From NCBI GenBank assembly GCA_029932675.1, contig JAOZPP010000014.1:1-41369 (forward strand): a DNA stretch of 41,369 nucleotides, read 5' to 3'. Shown one piece after another: positions 10,074 through 28,386 of the stretch; within the stretch, counting starts at the first letter, position 1, and every line of letters starts with the position of its first letter. Source of the stretch: a bacterium (GTDB lineage Bacteria > SM23-81 > DAOVCL01). The notes beneath the pieces were generated by a model. The model saw nothing but the letters and a program-made list of their open reading frames with translations, searched no databases and was not told the DNA's origin. The position numbers and the translations under genes were made by a program.

Positions 10074-11210
10074 TTGAGGATAGCGGTTTTGGGGGCGGGG
10101 AAGATGGGGCGAGGTGCAGCGTTTGACTTGGTAAACTCCTCCCCCGTAGAGGAGGTTTTGCTCGCCGATAGGGACCAAGCGAGGGCAGAAGGCCTTGCTC
10201 GCTGGTTAAAGAGCCCCAAGGTAAAGCCGCTGGGAGTGGATGCTCAGGAACCGGAGGAGATGATTAAGCTCTTGGAAGGCTGTGATGCGGCCATATCTTG
10301 CCTGCCCTATAGGTGCAACTTAGAGGTGGTTAAGTGCGCAATTAGGGCATAGACTAATCTCTGCGATTTAGGGGGAAATATAGAGGTGGTAAAGGAGGAG
10401 CTGGCCCTCTGCGAAGAGGCCAGGAGGGCAGAAGTGACCGTAATCCCTGACTGTGGCTTGGCCCCAGGGATGGTGAGCATCTTAGTGGCCTTGGGGATGA
10501 GGAGATTGAGCGATGTTTCCGAGGTACATATCAGGGTTGGAGGGCTTCCCCAGAACCCACGGCCTCCCTTAAATTATATGCTCAGCTTTTCAGTCTCTGG
10601 CCTAATAAACGAGTATATAGAACCCTGCCTCATCCTCAGGGATGGCCGGCTTACCACAGTTGCGCCCCTTACGGAGGTGGAGGAGATAAGGTTCCCCCCT
10701 CCTTGGGGGAGGCTGGAGGCTTTCCATACATCAGGAGGGGCATCCACCCTTCCCTTTACCTACCAGGGGAGGGTGAAGGAACTTGACTACAAAACCATAA
10801 GATATCCTGGTCATTGCCAGGTAGTCAAGGCAATGATTGAGCTGGGGTTGGGGAGTACCCAACCAGTCGTTGTTGATGGCCAAGAGGTTATCCCCCGTGC
10901 CCTCTTTGAGCACCTACTCCTTTCCCACCTTCCCACCACCGGGCCAGATGTTGTGCTTCTCCGGGTGAGCCTCTCCGGAGGGGGGAAGAGACTTACTTAC
11001 CAGATGGTTGACTCATATGACCCTGGGACAGGGCTTTCGGCTATGATGCGCACCACTGCTTTTCCCGCATCGATAATCGCCCAGATGCTTGGCTCCGCAC
11101 GAATAGGCGAGAAGGGGGTGCTCCCCCAAGAACTTTCCGTCCCCCCAGGGGATTTCTGCCAGGAACTGGAAAAGAGGGGGATAAGGGTGGAGGAGAGATG
11201 GGATAGCTGA
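10074..11210 (+). pseudogene. Saccharopine dehydrogenase-family gene interrupted by one in-frame TAG
   Basis: The first part encodes the Rossmann start LRIAVLGAGKMGRGAAFDLV and continues to EVVKCAIRA, then TAG at 10350-10352. In the same frame the next codons give TNLCDLGGNIEVVKEEL and continue to 11210 as a normal family C-terminus (PDCGLAPGM, then LDYKTIRYPGHC). The two parts add up to one standard-length protein of ~378 residues with one internal stop where relatives usually have Gly or another small residue. The family includes lysine 6-dehydrogenase and saccharopine reductases; substrate unknown. The start TTG 10074 follows AGGAGG (10064-10069); GTG 10047 is an alternative. The stop could be a mutation, a sequencing error or read-through. 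Confidence 0.82.
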
Positions 11211-11376
11211 CCTCACCCTTTCAGCCAGCCTGAGCATTTCCTGATTTGGACCTCCAGGAGATCTGTGAAGCACTCCTATGAGGCAGCTCAGGAAAAGAAC
11301 TCCCCTGAGTGAAGGGATCGGGAAATTCATAGTGGAGGAGGTATTCCACAGAGGATTAAGCAGATAGGAGGAGGCC

Positions 11377-12063
11377 ATGAGAGCGACTATAACCTTCAAT
11401 AATGTTCCCTTTGACAGGAGACTTCAGCCCGAATGGGGATTTTCTGTCTACATCGAGGGGTTCCCCCAGAAGATACTCTTCGACACCGGGGCAGATGGGG
11501 AGATACTCCTCTCCAATATGCGGTTATTAGGGATAGATCCCAAATCCATCGGCCTACTCTTCTTCTCCCACTCCCACTGGGATCACACCGGAGGGGCAGA
11601 GGCTTTTTTGAAGGAGAATCCAGACGTATCCATATATGTGTTGTCATCTTTTGCCTCTATGTTCCGGGATTACAGAGAAGTTATTTCCGACGAGCCTCAA
11701 AGGCTGCTGGGGGGAGTGCTCTCCACTGGCAAGATGGGCATAACCATTGAGGAACAATCTCTTCTGGTGAACACAGCCAAAGGTTGGGTTATCTTTACGG
11801 GATGTTCCCACCCTAATGTGGCTAGTATCGTGGAGAGGGCCAAGGAGGTGACCAAGGGGAGGATCCATCTGGTGATGGGGGGATTTCACTTGCCAGGCTA
11901 TGAAGAACCGGTTATCAAGGGGATAATCAGAAGGTTTAGGCAGGCTGGGGTGGAGAAGGTGGCCCCCTCCCATTGCACCGGTGAACCAGCCTTCAGGCTC
12001 TTTAAGGAGGAGTATGGGGAGGATTATCTGGAGACAGGGGTGGGGAGCGTTATCGAGATATGA
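11377..12063 (+). CDS. Metallo-beta-lactamase-fold hydrolase, cytoplasmic paralogue
   Basis: A 228-residue protein with HSHWDHTGG (the HxHxDH metal site), FDTGADGEILLSNM near the start, TGCSHPN for the third metal ligand and GGFHL and PSHCTG at the end. This set and order match the branch annotated as dihydropterin-ribofuranosyl-aminobenzene phosphate synthase-like MBL proteins, whose true substrates are mostly unknown. No signal peptide is seen. The start is ATG 11377 behind a strong GGAGGAGG-type site. A paralogue at 13212-13967 shares nearly every motif, and the two bracket a DUF123 and a NUDIX gene, suggesting a duplication within one operon. Confidence 0.87.
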   Translation: MRATITFNNVPFDRRLQPEWGFSVYIEGFPQKILFDTGADGEILLSNMRLLGIDPKSIGLLFFSHSHWDHTGGAEAFLKENPDVSIYVLSSFASMFRDYREVISDEPQRLLGGVLSTGKMGITIEEQSLLVNTAKGWVIFTGCSHPNVASIVERAKEVTKGRIHLVMGGFHLPGYEEPVIKGIIRRFRQAGVEKVAPSHCTGEPAFRLFKEEYGEDYLETGVGSVIEI

Positions 12064-20415: not shown

Positions 20416-20880
20416 ATGAAGACAGAAGATGAAAGTCTAATCGCATATTGTGGCCTCTACTGTGGGGATTGCCATGGTTATACTGGTAAAATTCCTGATT
20501 TAGCAAGAGATCTTAGAAAAGAATTAAGGGCATACAGATATGATAAGTTTGCAGAGTTCATTGCCGGCGAAGGTTTTGGTAAGGTCTTTAAGGACTACAA
20601 CAAATGTTACGAAGTCCTTGGAGGGATGGTCAAGTTTCGTTGCAGAAAAGGGTGCAAGAATGGAGGAGGTCCACCCTTTTGCAAGATAAGGAAATGCTGT
20701 CAAAAGAAAGGTATTGAAGGGTGTTGGGAATGCGATGATTTTGAGACATGTGGGAAACTAAGCTTTTTGGAACCAGTCCATGGAAATGCTCATATAAAGA
20801 ATCTAAAAACACTCAAGAAAAAAGGAGTTGAGGGATTCCTGAGGGGGAAAAGGTATTGGTATACGGAGAGCACCACCTAA
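20416..20880 (+). CDS. DUF3795-type cysteine-rich protein
   Basis: A 154-residue protein with many Cys. The start YCGLYCGDCHGYTG is the DUF3795 hallmark, then FRCRKGCKNGGGPPFCKIRK, CCQKKG and CWECDDFETC. It probably binds Zn or an Fe-S cluster; no enzymatic role is established. The start ATG 20416 has GAAGG upstream; GTG 20398 in frame is less likely. Its 3' end overlaps the metalloprotease-like gene by 25 nt. It begins just after a CATTAGGTGA junction also seen before the NUDIX gene at 22412. Confidence 0.8.
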   Translation: MKTEDESLIAYCGLYCGDCHGYTGKIPDLARDLRKELRAYRYDKFAEFIAGEGFGKVFKDYNKCYEVLGGMVKFRCRKGCKNGGGPPFCKIRKCCQKKGIEGCWECDDFETCGKLSFLEPVHGNAHIKNLKTLKKKGVEGFLRGKRYWYTESTT

Positions 20881-21959
20881 CCAAAAACGGCGATCATGTT
20901 GTTGTGGACTTCTCGATGGTCGAGAAGGGCGTGCTATGGCTGAGGATGATTAGAGATGGAGTGGATGACCAGGCAGTAAGGGCATATTTCATGCATGAAG
21001 TGGCCCCTACTGCGGGATGCAAGTCAATCATCCGCCATTGGCAGCGATTCATGGAGTGGGGCAATGAAGAGTTCTTTCGGTTCATTATGGAGGCGCTTGG
21101 CCGCGTTCCGACAGAGGAAGTGGCCAGGGACGAGAACAGGAATCTCACATCGTTCGGAAGGAGACAGTTCTTTTGGCAAGAAGCTATGCGTGATCCTGAT
21201 AGGATCAGCCGAGACCTTGAAGAGCTAAGGGCAGCAAATCTGGTGGATAGTGCCCTAACCCTTGCTAAGAAGTGCCTGCCTGAGGAAGCAATTGTGAGGA
21301 ATCATTTCTTTATCGTCCTCTTTGGTGGGTCGTCAGCCTACGCCGTTGGGGATGTAAATGGGTTCGATCTGCTTCAGCTTCCCAAACAGCCAGATGGCTC
21401 TATTGATATAGATAATGTTATCCGGACATTTGCGCACGAGATGCATCACACCGGTGTGCGTTTCTGCCATAAACGGTACATGTCTGGTATTCGCCATAAG
21501 GAGAGGCTCGGACTCGTGGCGCGCCTGGCGAATGAAGGTATGCCAATCTACTATATCAATCAGACAAGGGAGCGATTGCCTATGCTTGAGAAGAGCCTGA
21601 ACCCTACGCAGCAGGCTGATGTACAGGATTGGAAGCGTCATCTTGCCCGACTGCCTGAAATCTATGCCGAGGCAGAACGTGACATTCGGCTTAATCTCGA
21701 TGGCAAAATTGGGGATGAGGAGGTCATGTCGAGATGGATGATGGGATCTCAGGGCCAAGCGTATGTGCTTGGGTCGGACTTGGTTTCTGTGATAGATTTG
21801 CAGTTAGGATTGGATGCTGTGCTTGATGTAGCGCGTGATTATCGGCAGCTTTTGTTGGTGTACAATCGGGCTGCTAAGAAGGCTAACCGATCCGGCCTGA
21901 GTTGCTTCGTTTTTAGCGATGAACTTGCGAATCGCGTGGCAAATTTCACAGGCCGGTGA
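20856..21959 (+). CDS. DUF5700-like putative zinc metalloprotease
   Basis: A 367-residue protein with a gluzincin-type site, FAHEMHHTGVRF (HExxH, His ~203 and 207), and a downstream EGMPIYYINQ segment that could supply the Glu ligand. The N-terminal VVVDFSMVEKGVLWL resembles DUF5700 proteins, which have no established substrate. No signal peptide is seen, so it is probably intracellular. The start TTG 20856 lies 8 nt after GAGGGGG; ATG 20916 is an alternative. Codon use stands out: Arg is often CGT, CGC or CGA here, while flanking core genes use AGG/AGA almost exclusively. This suggests recent transfer. Confidence 0.72.
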   Translation: MVYGEHHLTKNGDHVVVDFSMVEKGVLWLRMIRDGVDDQAVRAYFMHEVAPTAGCKSIIRHWQRFMEWGNEEFFRFIMEALGRVPTEEVARDENRNLTSFGRRQFFWQEAMRDPDRISRDLEELRAANLVDSALTLAKKCLPEEAIVRNHFFIVLFGGSSAYAVGDVNGFDLLQLPKQPDGSIDIDNVIRTFAHEMHHTGVRFCHKRYMSGIRHKERLGLVARLANEGMPIYYINQTRERLPMLEKSLNPTQQADVQDWKRHLARLPEIYAEAERDIRLNLDGKIGDEEVMSRWMMGSQGQAYVLGSDLVSVIDLQLGLDAVLDVARDYRQLLLVYNRAAKKANRSGLSCFVFSDELANRVANFTGR

Positions 21960-23250: not shown

Positions 23251-23595
23251 TCAGATCTCCACTTCCCCCAGCCTCCCTATTAACGACTCCACCTTTATGG
23301 TGGCGATGAGACCAGTCCCCGGCTTGTCTAAGTCTATCTCCACGTCCTTGAGAAGCCTGGCGATCTTCCGATCTGCCTCCCTGTCCTCCACCAGGGCCAG
23401 GATAGTCTTGGAGTAGGTCCTCCCCCCCTCCATACCAAATCTCAGACCAGCAAAGATGGGCACCTTATAGGCCAAAACCCTTCCCAGGGCCTGGCTATCC
23501 AAGATGGAGGCATCGGTGATCCCCAGCTCGATGAGCACGGAGAGGACATCTTCTAAGATGCCCTCCTTGGTGAGTATGATGACCAAAAGATACAT
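23251..23595 (-). CDS. PII-like signalling protein, antiporter-associated
   Basis: A 114-residue protein with a ferredoxin-like, PII-type layout: MYLLVIILTKEGILEDVLSV, then VLSVLIELGITDASILDSQA, GRVLAY, FGMEGGRTYSKTILALVED and a closing GTGLIATIKVES strand. The pattern (beta1, helix, beta2, flexible loop, beta3, helix, beta4) resembles PII/CutA superfamily proteins that sense nucleotides or metabolites. The glnB signature is absent, so it is not a canonical nitrogen regulator. It is the last gene of a - strand run with a CBS-EIIA protein and two antiporters, so I infer that it modulates ion transport. Start CAT at 23593-23595; upstream GGGGGAAAG serves as ribosome site. Confidence 0.7.
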   Translation of the reverse strand: MYLLVIILTKEGILEDVLSVLIELGITDASILDSQALGRVLAYKVPIFAGLRFGMEGGRTYSKTILALVEDREADRKIARLLKDVEIDLDKPGTGLIATIKVESLIGRLGEVEI

Positions 23596-23809
23596 TGATC
23601 TTTCCCCCTTGTGAACTTAGCGCCCTGTGGGCAAACTATAAAGGACGCATATAAACAGGATTTCTTAACACCTCCTTCCCATAAATAGGGAGGGAGATTA
23701 TCTCATTACCCCTTAACCCCTCCCCCTGCTCAAAGAGGAAGGGAAGTATCTATTGCAATGGCAGTTGGCCCCTTTAGCCTGCAACAAACCAGGAGAGATT
23801 CCGAATTAT

Positions 23810-24787
23810 TCAACTATGGATGACCCTTCCTTCCTTTGGTTTCACCCTTATCTCCCCCCTAAACTTTAGGTCAAACTCCTGGATTACCTGGAGGAGATCA
23901 TCGACCGTTCTCGCCTTCAGGAGCTTTTCCTTCCAGGGCTTGCTCTTCAATAGCCTGGCCACCTTGGCCACGGTTTGCAGGTATTCCTGGCGAGCGCTTG
24001 GAGGGGCGGCGATCATAAAGATCAGGTGAACGGGCTGGGCATCAAGTGCCTCAAAATCAACTCCTTGGTTTGATCTTCCAATACCAATAGCCATCCTCTT
24101 TACCCCTGTAGATCTCCCATGAGGGATGGCTATCCCATTGCCGATGGCTGTAGACTCAATCTCTTCCCTCTTCTCTATGGCTTCCAGGAAAGCCTCTTTG
24201 GATTCTACAACCCCCGCCTGGGGGAAGGGGGCGATCATCTCCTTGATCACCCCTTGTTTCTCCCTGCTCTTTAGCTCCGTAATGATTAAATCCCTTTGCA
24301 CCAACTCAGAGAGGGTTACCCCACCTCTACCTGCCTTCTCTTCCTGGAATCCCAGCTTTTCCAACCAGACCGAGAGCAATTCAAGGAGGTCAAGTTCGCC
24401 GATGATCCTTTCCTCTTCATCTATAACAGGGATTTCCTCTACCCCTTCATCGAGCATCCTGGAGAGGGCCTCCTCTAAGTCCTCCTCATCCCTCAAAGGG
24501 GAGGTTACTCCAGAGAGGAGATCTGAAGCCTTTTGGGTGGCAACAACTCTATAGGCCGAGTAACCAAGGGTATCGATCTCCATTAGGTGAGGGAAGATCA
24601 CCTTCACCAGATCCTTGAGGGTGATCAGCCCTTTTAGTTTACCCTCCTTATCCACCACACACAAGCTCCTCTTCTTGGGATCCTCAGTGATGGCCAGGGC
24701 GAGTTCCTCCAGAGTGGCATCCTCAGAGACCAAGGTAGGCATCACATTGATTAGTTTGCGGGCATTACTTACCTTATACTTTCTCAT
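23810..24787 (-). CDS. CBS-pair / PTS EIIA (PtsN-type) regulatory protein
   Basis: A 325-residue cytoplasmic protein. Residues 1-140 hold two CBS motifs (the first around INVMPTLVSEDATLEEL and SLCVVDKEGKLKGLITLKDL, the second around LEEALSRMLDEGVEEIPVID). Residues ~160-310 are an EIIA type-2 domain with the phospho-acceptor His in GNGIAIPHGRST (H223). CBS pairs bind adenosine nucleotides. Here phosphorylation and nucleotide sensing may jointly control the two neighbouring antiporters, as PtsN controls K+ systems elsewhere. No PTS EI/HPr or sugar permease is nearby. It is separated by 133 bp from the antiporter gene and by 214 bp from the PII-like gene. Confidence 0.85.
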   Translation of the reverse strand: MRKYKVSNARKLINVMPTLVSEDATLEELALAITEDPKKRSLCVVDKEGKLKGLITLKDLVKVIFPHLMEIDTLGYSAYRVVATQKASDLLSGVTSPLRDEEDLEEALSRMLDEGVEEIPVIDEEERIIGELDLLELLSVWLEKLGFQEEKAGRGGVTLSELVQRDLIITELKSREKQGVIKEMIAPFPQAGVVESKEAFLEAIEKREEIESTAIGNGIAIPHGRSTGVKRMAIGIGRSNQGVDFEALDAQPVHLIFMIAAPPSARQEYLQTVAKVARLLKSKPWKEKLLKARTVDDLLQVIQEFDLKFRGEIRVKPKEGRVIHS

Positions 24788-24801
24788 TTCTACCTCCCTC
24801 G

Positions 24802-24900
24802 AACTTAGCTCCCTTGCGGTCGCTAACTTCTCCAGAGGGCCTCACCGGCCCTATGGCGCTCCGCAGTCCTCCGCCAGCTCGGATTGCTTCGCTGTCACCC
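24802..24900 (+). repeat. Dispersed ~100-bp intergenic repeat, copy A
   Basis: It starts AACTTAGCTC and ends near GTCACCC. By eye it aligns with 28387-28484 over its length at roughly 70% identity, and its ends match 28641-28719 in reverse orientation (shared GGTCGCTAAC and TGCTTCGC blocks). It lies between the CBS-EIIA and antiporter genes. No ORF is shared between copies, so it acts at DNA or RNA level or is mobile. Confidence 0.6.
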
Positions 24901-24920
24901 TTGAAGGGGGCATACCCCCT

Positions 24921-26096
24921 TCAAATATCCCCCGACGTTTCAGAATTTCTTAGAAATTCCGAAACGTCGAGATAACCTCTAAAGGTAAATTTTAAAAGCA
25001 TTGGGGTCATGATGGCGGTAATGACCACCATAAGCACGGTGCCAGAGAGCTCAGGTTGGCCGATTAAGTGGTTGCTCATCCCCAGCGAGGCTATCACCAA
25101 GGCAACTTCCCCGCGGGGCAGCATCCCCACCCCCACTCTCAGGGCCCCTTTGTGCCCCAGACCAGAGAGATGCCCCCCTAATCCAGCCCCAGCAACCTTA
25201 CCCAAAATTGCCGCTATGATGAGGAGAAAGATGAAAAGATACCCTCCATTCAGGCCTCTCAACTCTGCCTCTAAGCCCACTTCTACAAAGAAGATACTGA
25301 TAAAAAGCGACTGACCCAAGGTTTCCATACCAGCCAGTATCCTCCGTTTCATTGGCGTCCTGCCCAAGAGGAGCCCAGCGATATAAGCCCCGGTTATATG
25401 GGCTACACCTGCATATTCGGCTGACCAGGAGTAGAAGAAAGCAATGCCTAAGGCCAAGGCCACCACACCGTGGCTGGCATGGAGCCTCTCGGCGAACCTC
25501 ATTATCCTGCCGAAGAGGAGGAAGCCCAAGAGGGCGGCGAGGAGGAAGAAGGCCACTACCTTGCTCAGGGGAAGCCAAAAGTTTGGTGAACTGCTGGCCA
25601 AACCCAGAATGAAGGTTAGAAGGATGATGGCCATTACGTCATCAAGGACTGCTGCCCCCAAGATCACCGTTCCCTCATCTGATTTGAGCCGTTTCATATC
25701 CATCAAGGTCATTACCGTGACACTCACACTGGTGGCGGTAAGGATGGCCCCGATGATCAGCCCCTTTGTTAGATTATAGCCAAAGGGAAGGGAAAGGCCA
25801 AATCCGAAGAGGAAGGGGAGCAATACCCCACCTGAGGCAGTGATCAGGGAGAATCTTCCCACCCGACGCATCTGGAGGATATCTGTCTGCAGTCCAGCCA
25901 TAAAGAGAAGGATGATGACCCCTAACTTAGCCAACCATTTGAGGACGATGTCTGCTTGGATTAGGCCAAACCCAGATGGTCCTAAGAGCAACCCCAAAAG
26001 CAACATCCCCAACACAGGGGGTTGTTTAAACCTGTTCCCTAAAGCGGTAGTAAATTTTGATAGGGTAATGATAACTGCAAGATGTAAGAGGATCAT
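24921..26096 (-). CDS. CPA2-type cation/proton antiporter (first copy)
   Basis: A 391-residue membrane protein with about 11-12 hydrophobic segments. Landmarks are LGMLLLGLLLGPSGFGLI, ILLFMAGLQTD, ILTATSVSVTVMTLMDM and GAAVLDDVMAIILL, which carries the paired Asp of the ion site. This fits the KefB/NapA branch that exchanges Na+ or K+ for H+. It lacks the C-terminal RCK domain of KefB; regulation may come from the CBS-EIIA protein just downstream in the transcript. A ribosome site GAGGAAGGGAG precedes the start. A large hairpin spans its last codons (24933-24969), encoding the tail FLRNSETSGDI. Confidence 0.88.
   Translation of the reverse strand: MILLHLAVIITLSKFTTALGNRFKQPPVLGMLLLGLLLGPSGFGLIQADIVLKWLAKLGVIILLFMAGLQTDILQMRRVGRFSLITASGGVLLPFLFGFGLSLPFGYNLTKGLIIGAILTATSVSVTVMTLMDMKRLKSDEGTVILGAAVLDDVMAIILLTFILGLASSSPNFWLPLSKVVAFFLLAALLGFLLFGRIMRFAERLHASHGVVALALGIAFFYSWSAEYAGVAHITGAYIAGLLLGRTPMKRRILAGMETLGQSLFISIFFVEVGLEAELRGLNGGYLFIFLLIIAAILGKVAGAGLGGHLSGLGHKGALRVGVGMLPRGEVALVIASLGMSNHLIGQPELSGTVLMVVITAIMTPMLLKFTFRGYLDVSEFLRNSETSGDI
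24933..24969. repeat. Large hairpin at the 3' end of the antiporter gene
   Basis: Stem CGACGTTTC plus GAATTTC pairs with GAAATTC plus GAAACGTCG, giving 16 bp with one A-C mismatch and a TTA loop. It covers the last codons of the - strand antiporter gene. There is no U-tract, so it is not a standard terminator. It shares 18 of 19 bases with 7154-7172, suggesting a REP-like element inserted at the gene end. Confidence 0.65.
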
Positions 26097-26242
26097 TGAG
26101 TAAATCTCCCTTCCTCATGAGGAGGGAGGGGTTCAAATTTATCAATCTTCAAATCAGTGAGACCTAACCTGAAGGGGGGTGGCTCTCAGGGAGGAAATCT
26201 ACCAGCAGGGGGTATCTGCTCAAAAACCATTACCGCGGATAA

Positions 26243-27415
26243 CTAACCCCTCCCTATCTCCCCTGCTCGCTGAAGGGAAAACTTGGTGAAGATGGGTCCC
26301 ACTATCTCGTAGAGGACAGTTGTTCCCACGATAACCGTGAGAATGAGGTTACCTGCCTCCGGAAACGCTGCTTTGACATAGAGGGCCATCCCTAAGGCTA
26401 CCCCAGCTTGCGGGATTAAGCCCAGCCCTAAATACCTCTTCACCACCTTAGTCGATTTGGCGATTGTGGCCCCCAGCCAGGAGCCCAACCATTCACCAAA
26501 GGGCCGAGTGAAGAAGTAGGCAAGTCCAATTAAGCTCAACTCCTTAAGGACCCTAAGCTCCAGGTTTGCCCCAGCCAAGACGAAAAAGAGAAGGTAGAGG
26601 GGAAAATCCACATCCTTGATCACATCAAAGAACCTCTTCCCCCTGGGGTGAAGGTTAACAACAACTGTGCCAAAGAACATATTGGTCAAGAGCACAGAGG
26701 TATCAACGAGCTTGGAGAGGCCAACACCTAAAAAAAGGAACCCCAAACCATAGATTAGGGTCTCCTCCCGGTGGCGGGCAAACCTGGAGAGGAAAGTAAA
26801 TATCCAACCCAAGATTCCTCCGATGATAAAGGATCCCAAGACCTTGAGGAGGGCAAGCCCCACGACCTTCCAGGGGAGGAGGTGAGAGGCATAGAATAAT
26901 TCTCTGGCCACGGCCAAGGAGACAGCAAAGAGGATCAACCCCCAGGCATCGTCAATTGCCACCACCCCTAAGAGGGTATCGGTGAGTACCCCCTTGCTCC
27001 TGTATTCCCTGATTACCATAATGGTTGCCGCGGGGGCAGTGGCCGGGGCTATAGCCCCAAAGAGAAGGCAGATATAGAGCGGCTGACCTAAGAATAACCG
27101 CAAGCTAAGGCTAACCAGACCCCAGGAGACAACCACTTCACCTATGGAGATCCATAAGACAGACTTCCCCAGCCTTTTAAACTGGCGAAGGGAGAAGTTC
27201 TCCCCGATGACAAAGGCAATCACCCCTAAGACGAACTCAGAGAAGAGGCCAGATGCCCCTAATATCTTGGGGGTAATCAGGTTCCCTAATTCTGGACCGA
27301 TGAGGATTCCCACTATGAGATAAGCGGTCACCATAGGTAGCCTAACCCAATGGATGAGCTTGGCGGCCAGAAAGGCTACCAGGAATATTAACCCCAAGCT
27401 GAGGATTGAGTTCAT
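26243..27415 (-). CDS. CPA2-type cation/proton antiporter (second copy)
   Basis: A 390-residue polytopic membrane protein, distinct from the first antiporter. It has LPMVTAYLIVGILIGPELGN, FVLGVIAFVIGENFSLRQF, IAPATAPAATIMVIREYRSK and VVAIDDAWGLILFA with the paired Asp. The gene is first in the - strand run; the ATG is at 27413-27415. Together with the second antiporter, CBS-EIIA and PII-like genes it makes a four-gene locus, possibly a hetero-oligomeric or differently regulated pair. It could transport Na+, K+ or another monovalent cation. Confidence 0.88.
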   Translation of the reverse strand: MNSILSLGLIFLVAFLAAKLIHWVRLPMVTAYLIVGILIGPELGNLITPKILGASGLFSEFVLGVIAFVIGENFSLRQFKRLGKSVLWISIGEVVVSWGLVSLSLRLFLGQPLYICLLFGAIAPATAPAATIMVIREYRSKGVLTDTLLGVVAIDDAWGLILFAVSLAVARELFYASHLLPWKVVGLALLKVLGSFIIGGILGWIFTFLSRFARHREETLIYGLGFLFLGVGLSKLVDTSVLLTNMFFGTVVVNLHPRGKRFFDVIKDVDFPLYLLFFVLAGANLELRVLKELSLIGLAYFFTRPFGEWLGSWLGATIAKSTKVVKRYLGLGLIPQAGVALGMALYVKAAFPEAGNLILTVIVGTTVLYEIVGPIFTKFSLQRAGEIGRG

Positions 27416-27590: not shown

Positions 27591-28196
27591 TTAAAATCGC
27601 TGAGCCCCTTGCTTAACCTGCAGAAAATACTTTTTGTATGCATGGTTTACCTCCCCTGATTTGATCATCACCGAAGTTTCGTTGTTCTCCTCCAAGGCAT
27701 AGTAGGTCCAGTTGGTGGAACCAACTATGGTCAGGTCATCGTCAACCAGGATGAGTTTGTCGTGGGTGGTGACCCGGGGATCGTCGAGGAAGACCTTAAC
27801 CCCTCCCTCTTTTAACATCCCGGCAAAGAAACGATTCTTCTCCGTATTCTCCTTGTTCCAGTCAGAGGAATCCAAGATTACTATAACTTTTACTCCCCTT
27901 TTGGCGGCCTCGACGAGGTCCTCCAAGAGGAGGTTTGTGTTGCTGTAGGGCTGGCCTTCTCCGTGGGTATAGTGTCGGGCATACTTTGGGGGTTCAGTAT
28001 AGTATCTGGCCGAATACATCATCACCCAGATGGAACCCTTTGCCTGGTTGATGACTTCCTCTACTGCTGGGAAGTAGTCCCTGTTGTTTAAAACCTTTAT
28101 CCATTCCACAGGGAGCCTGGGTGCATTGGCTTGAGCTAATATTTGGCTGAAGGGGAAAAGAACTATTGTGATCGCCAGAGCAAGATGCCTCTTCAT
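27591..28196 (-). CDS. Secreted single-domain PLD-family nuclease/phospholipase
   Basis: A 201-residue protein with a signal peptide (MKRHLALAITIVLFPFSQIL, cleavage after AQA) and one HKD motif near the end: THDKLILVDDDLTIVGSTNW (H-x-K-x4-D). The AKGSIWVMMYSARYY start is the usual first strand of the PLD fold. Single-HKD proteins of this size (Nuc-like) act as dimers, often as nucleases. The export signal points to periplasm or outside. I chose ATG 28194-28196 because AGGAGGTAAA precedes it; a longer frame upstream lacks a site and would hide the signal peptide. Confidence 0.87.
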   Translation of the reverse strand: MKRHLALAITIVLFPFSQILAQANAPRLPVEWIKVLNNRDYFPAVEEVINQAKGSIWVMMYSARYYTEPPKYARHYTHGEGQPYSNTNLLLEDLVEAAKRGVKVIVILDSSDWNKENTEKNRFFAGMLKEGGVKVFLDDPRVTTHDKLILVDDDLTIVGSTNWTYYALEENNETSVMIKSGEVNHAYKKYFLQVKQGAQRF

Positions 28197-28386
28197 TTTA
28201 CCTCCTATTTTTGCTAAGAAGGAAACTGTGCCTAAGATTGGGCTCTGCCACCTGAACCTTACTCTGTGGCAAAGATGATCCTCCATAAAGGTGGGGTCCC
28301 TAAGGCTGTTCCTCTCCCGATACCCCTACTAAAGATGTTGCTAAGCAAAGAAGAGGATGTTTTCCCTCTGGAAACCATCCTCGAAA

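Follow-up and report, generated by a model that had tools for sequence, protein, structure and literature searches.

Linked EIIA and PII-like genes recur beside cation/proton antiporter genes in many bacterial lineages and may form a metabolically gated switch

What could bring a PII-like protein, a fusion of a CBS pair with an EIIA domain of the phosphotransferase system (PTS) and two cation/proton antiporters together at one locus? This question is raised by the window, the whole stretch of 41,369 nucleotides that was analysed here. The preliminary description of it saw four genes in the same direction, and all four open reading frames were indeed found, on the minus strand. According to the ORF call their order from upstream to downstream is antiporter B (26243..27415, 390 aa), antiporter A (24921..26096, 391 aa), CBS-EIIA (23810..24787, 325 aa) and the PII-like protein (23251..23595, 114 aa), each preceded by a purine-rich stretch which, read by eye, resembles a ribosome binding site. 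The spacers measure 133-214 bp, most relatives having narrower ones, and promoter and terminator scans of the cassette gave no clear excess over chance; the four genes may be co-transcribed. The gap of 133 bp between antiporter A and CBS-EIIA lies within a dispersed repeat of ~167 bp (24801..24967, no strand assigned), which also supplies the last ~15 codons and the stop of antiporter A. This repeat, which ends in an 18-nt near-perfect inverted repeat, exists in some 30 full or partial copies genome-wide, and we do not think that it is part of the cassette's function. A PLD-like gene just upstream of antiporter B (27591-28286, minus strand) was weighed as a possible fifth gene of the cassette and rejected, since it is not a recurrent neighbour of the other cassettes. 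A further ORF of the window, at 20856-21959 on the plus strand, encodes a putative DUF5700 zinc peptidase.

Both antiporters belong to the CPA type, with Pfam matches to Na_H_Exchanger (PF00999) at 5.9e-34 and 2.9e-67. No further domain exceeded the cut-off in either of them with Pfam, and NCBIfam agrees; both proteins stop right after the transmembrane domain. They are thus devoid of a cytosolic regulatory domain of their own, as had been proposed at the outset, and the RCK/CorC docking region of the YcgO type is likewise absent from both (Pfam). Antiporter A is a NapA-like CPA2 protein (E 5.5e-44) and antiporter B a more remote CPA. The Asp-Asp pair of the CPA antiporter core is kept in both, at residues 152-153 of A and 155-156 of B. 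In six tandem CPA pairs from other loci (L094, L101, L113, L117, L118, L123) the alignment shows one antiporter apparently without Asp-Asp, its partner having KD, GD or SD; these sequences suggest that such pairs may be heterodimers with a degenerate subunit.

The third gene product consists of two CBS domains (residues 1-150, 24338..24787) and a Fru/Ntr-type PTS_EIIA_2 domain (23876..24304; PF00359 at 7.6e-36 in Pfam, with 123.7 bits against a cut-off of 27); NCBIfam was applied to it as well, and its CbpB model scored far below cut-off. The phospho-acceptor histidine of the EIIA domain is intact, as stated in the preliminary description: His223 (codon 24119..24121) sits in the motif AIPHGR, within a stretch that aligns with PtsN-type structures. 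The claim that the CBS pair is intact holds for one half of it. CBS1 keeps the pattern G-x-x-T-x-x-D (GLITLKD), and CBS2 is degenerate at this position (GELDLLE).

The 114-aa protein encoded by the fourth gene has no family match in Pfam or NCBIfam, and its designation as PII-like had to be approached through its relatives. Four of 19 relatives match P-II (PF00543), at best with 3.4e-5. A profile of ten members has a PII protein as its best PDB match (E 0.005), and ten of its twelve best PDB matches are PII or GlnK chains. An AlphaFold model built on the 19-sequence alignment reached a pLDDT of 84.6, compared to 41.5 in a single-sequence run. The model has the beta-alpha-beta-beta-alpha-beta fold of the PII superfamily, a ferredoxin-like fold, with the T-loop between strands 2 and 3, and its top 50 Foldseek matches are all PII, SbtB or PotN, at a modest TM of ~0.5-0.6. 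Thus the naming was right but the relationship is remote: by profile and predicted fold, the fourth protein is a distant PII-like protein.

The hallmark of this family is the motif PIFAGL at the T-loop position (residues 46-51, 23443..23460; P46 conserved to 94% and F48 to 93%). The residues by which GlnB and GlnK bind ATP and 2-oxoglutarate (T-loop Tyr, B-loop Gly-Asp-Gly-Lys, C-loop Arg) are not conserved in the family alignment, which has PIFAGL and PGxG in their stead and neither a conserved B-loop Lys nor a C-terminal Arg pair. Hence binding of ATP or 2-oxoglutarate by the PII-like protein is not assured. In genome G003 a second, apparently broken PII-like copy lies at 107362-107696 of contig C70, in two pieces with stops.

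The preliminary description named co-occurrence of the regulators and antiporters in other genomes as the observation on which the proposal would stand or fall. The only queries in the search for homologues were the PII-like protein and its profile, and the choice was thus independent of the neighbours; for the scoring of the flanking ORFs, profiles were made here for EIIA, CPA, CBS and PII-like. The search covered 60 genomes, a scan of genome contigs with 19 matches (in Latescibacterota, KSB1, WOR-3, Zixibacteria, Aerophobetes and Coatesbacteria) and 386 genomes, 63 of them positive. After five duplicate contigs had been dropped, 86 PII-like copies remained, some close relatives still included. 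An EIIA gene on the same strand within 2.5 kb was found for 61 of these copies and a CPA antiporter gene for 58; both were present in 47, at least one in 72 and neither in 14, one of which lies beside Mrp genes. For a random gene of the window's own genome the expected chance of such nearness is ~0.6% with its three antiporters and ~0.5% with its three EIIA domains. The link is seen in 39 of the 47 family-level lineages with a PII-like gene, and 27 of the 47 have a fusion, a link to Mrp, or EIIA together with an antiporter. On the level of whole genomes, counted by eye, an EIIA is present in 57 of the 63 PII-like-positive genomes versus 213 of the 323 others (p=4e-5). The joint recurrence of regulators and antiporters in many lineages therefore far exceeds what chance would give.

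The two regulators behave, to all appearance, as one unit. This follows from their arrangement: in 47 of the 51 unfused pairs the EIIA gene comes first, the median gap is 19 bp, and 11 copies (from seven families) are outright EIIA–PII-like fusions with the EIIA at the N-terminus and a length of ~270-280 aa where complete. A CPA gene adjoins nine of the 11 fusions; in the remaining two the contig breaks off. In a tree of the PII-like domain the fusions have at least two origins on well-supported branches, a tentative result given few alignment columns and long branches. The phospho-histidine motif is kept in nearly all cassette EIIAs. In contrast to this pair, the CBS domains are rare. They occur in three of the 86 cassettes, fused to EIIA in the window and as a separate gene in L024 and L040, and among the 386 genomes the CBS-EIIA fusion was found in the window's own genome only. 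A universal role of CBS in the cassette was rejected on these counts; the pair is an accessory found now and then, probably a lineage-specific extra input. The three separate signals of the preliminary description would thus reduce to one EIIA–PII-like unit with an occasional CBS addition. Two antiporters as a fixed design did not hold up either, since number and type of the antiporters vary: some cassettes have a single CPA, others a pair of CPAs and others again an Mrp complex.

The Mrp cases are informative with respect to the partner of this unit. In four genomes (L016, L100, L102, L105) MrpE and further Mrp (CPA3) subunits follow immediately after the PII-like gene, and in three of the four an EIIA is present. 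Mrp and CPA antiporters are not related to each other. The PII-like module has thus moved between unrelated antiporters, and the common denominator would be cation/proton antiport itself. Other neighbourhoods were also observed. In L110, L111 and L112 an EIIA–PII-like pair lies on the same strand as a gene for a ClC channel/antiporter with CBS domains, 0.4-2.9 kb away. In L087 and L133 the neighbours of the PII-like gene belong to an F-ATPase: the ATP synthase a subunit in both and, in L087, also the ATP synthase I chain. No EIIA or CPA is near it in these two. A link to a Na+-type F-ATPase was considered for L133 and discarded, as the c-subunit, read by eye, looks H+-type.

These neighbourhoods allow other interpretations. 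One is that EIIA and the PII-like protein act mainly upon one another or upon some other shared target, for instance a kinase or a system for K+ uptake, and that the antiporters are co-regulated passengers. This would account for the 14 copies which have an EIIA and no CPA within 2.5 kb (three of these are Mrp-linked, two are cut by contig ends and some are near the ClC-CBS genes), as well as for the 14 copies with neither; moreover, E. coli PtsN binds TrkA and KdpD too (PMC13104625). However, the linkage to both CPA and Mrp and the fusions lying directly beside CPA genes speak for antiport as the shared denominator, and we regard the passenger role as unlikely.

It is somewhat less likely still that the PII-like protein serves the antiporter as an accessory subunit with a structural role and senses no ligand, so that only EIIA and CBS carry signals. 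KefF, the accessory subunit of KefC, would be the model for such an arrangement. It would fit with the conservation of PIFAGL while the canonical PII ligand residues are not conserved, and with the 11 copies in which a CPA gene without EIIA adjoins the PII-like gene. Yet some PII-like genes are alone or beside F-ATPase genes, and PII-like relatives, SbtB among them, are ligand sensors despite their divergence from classical PII. Chance, or synteny running through whole lineages with no functional link, is very improbable. The wide spacers of the window, which hold a dispersed repeat, might be taken as a sign of it, but a link in 39 of 47 lineages, where the order of the genes shifts, fusions have arisen repeatedly and one antiporter family has been exchanged for another, excludes simple synteny.

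The window's own genome (3.03 Mb, 97% complete) gives an indication of the signal which the EIIA could carry. Its PF00999 antiporters number three, as do its EIIA_2 domains. Another cassette, in the order antiporter–EIIA–PII-like, is located on contig C109, and the two cassettes of this genome contain all three antiporters and two of the three EIIA domains. The third EIIA_2 is the C-terminal tail of an amino-acid permease of the APC type (L051:3865-5721; genome G000, contig C28). HPr and EI are adjacent on contig C14 of genome G000, beside dprA. The 97%-complete genome gave no match to PF02378 or PF03609, the two EIIC families searched. Since every EIIA_2 is tied to a secondary transporter and no EIIC was found, the PTS looks like a regulatory phosphorelay, and it appears to serve regulation only. 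A CdaA-type diadenylate cyclase is encoded ~2.6 kb from the HPr and EI genes (this group of genes lies at L052:6337-8341 and 10973-11755), so that the CBS pair or the PII-like protein may have c-di-AMP as its ligand.

Our preferred interpretation, to which we assign a probability of roughly 60%, is that the cassette is a PTS- and ligand-gated switch in which EIIA and the PII-like protein set the activity of a cation/proton antiporter in trans. Phosphate would pass from PEP via EI and HPr to His223 of the EIIA, which would then report the phosphorylation of the PTS. The PII-like protein, presumably a trimer, would report a small ligand and offer its conserved hydrophobic T-loop (PIFAGL) to the target. 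One phosphorylation or ligand state would keep the antiporter at low activity and the other would free it; by analogy to E. coli PtsN, the low-activity state would most likely be that with unphosphorylated EIIA. In the window lineage, adenine nucleotides or c-di-AMP probably provide a further input through the CBS pair that EIIA carries there. As the antiporters lack a cytosolic docking domain, the contact would have to be made with the membrane domain or through the PII-like protein. The mismatch in symmetry between a PII trimer and a CPA dimer has to be counted against this model, and so have the 14 copies with neither EIIA nor CPA nearby and the wide spacers of the window. Control in trans, as suggested in the preliminary description, is in line with the recurrence of regulators together with antiporters and with the tail-less form of the latter; the regulation itself, and with it the physical contact, the ligand, the direction of control and the transported ion, we infer.

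Parts of such a switch are known from other organisms. In E. coli, unphosphorylated PtsN (EIIANtr) binds and inhibits the K+/H+ antiporter YcgO (PMC11808508), and PtsN interacts with further partners as mentioned above. The similarity to the cassette lies in a Fru/Ntr-type EIIA acting in trans on a cation/proton antiporter under control of its phosphorylation state, as we propose it here. The E. coli system differs in its PtsP-PtsO relay, compared to EI and HPr here, and in having no PII-like partner. Furthermore YcgO has an RCK and a putative C-terminal CorC domain which mediates PtsN binding, whereas the window antiporters are without both; hence the contact of the EIIA must differ from that between PtsN and YcgO. 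The second precedent is the PII-like protein SbtB of cyanobacteria, which locks SbtA by direct binding (PMC8352866, PMC10710835). SbtA, however, is a bicarbonate transporter, no EIIA is involved there, and the PII-like family of the cassette has its own T-loop motif, PIFAGL, with a window protein that matches no Pfam family. By analogy, the cassette looks like the PtsN–YcgO and SbtB–SbtA systems merged and physically linked.

Two further groups of proteins invite comparison. EIIA domains as likely regulators of secondary transporters are also represented by LacS (PMC10710835) and by the EIIA-APC permease of the window's own genome; in contrast to these, EIIA and transporter are distinct proteins in the cassette, and the fusion partner of the EIIA is CBS here and the PII-like domain in some relatives. 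PII-like and CBS proteins tied to K+ homeostasis are the likeness to PstA/DarA, CbpB/DarB and the TM0935-type CBS proteins, and a CdaA-type cyclase is present here as well. PstA/DarA and CbpB/DarB are receptors of c-di-AMP. PstA, however, was not among the top 50 Foldseek matches of the PII-like model.

No description of the EIIA–PII-like–antiporter cassette, its fusion, the movement between CPA and Mrp or the PII-like family was found in open-licence full-text papers. What appears to be new is the linked EIIA–PII-like unit, with the fusion that occurs in nature and the change of partner from CPA to Mrp or back, and the PII-like family; the parts and principles are already known. For the broader reading, in which EIIA and the PII-like protein are a portable two-input unit mounted on CPA and Mrp antiporters and the PTS is used for regulation only in at least one host, we consider the odds to be even.

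If these interpretations are correct, PTS and PII signaling would meet in a single unit that controls the homeostasis of ions and pH, and this in many uncultured phyla, among them Latescibacterota, KSB1, WOR-3, Zixibacteria, Aerophobetes and Coatesbacteria. The natural single-protein fusion of EIIA and PII-like beside an antiporter would be a compact object for biochemistry. The cassette also suggests a purpose that a PTS without sugar permeases may have. The extrusion of Na+ or K+ and the control of pH would be linked to the energy and carbon status of the cell, so that the balance of ions and pH is probably coupled to metabolism through the cassette.
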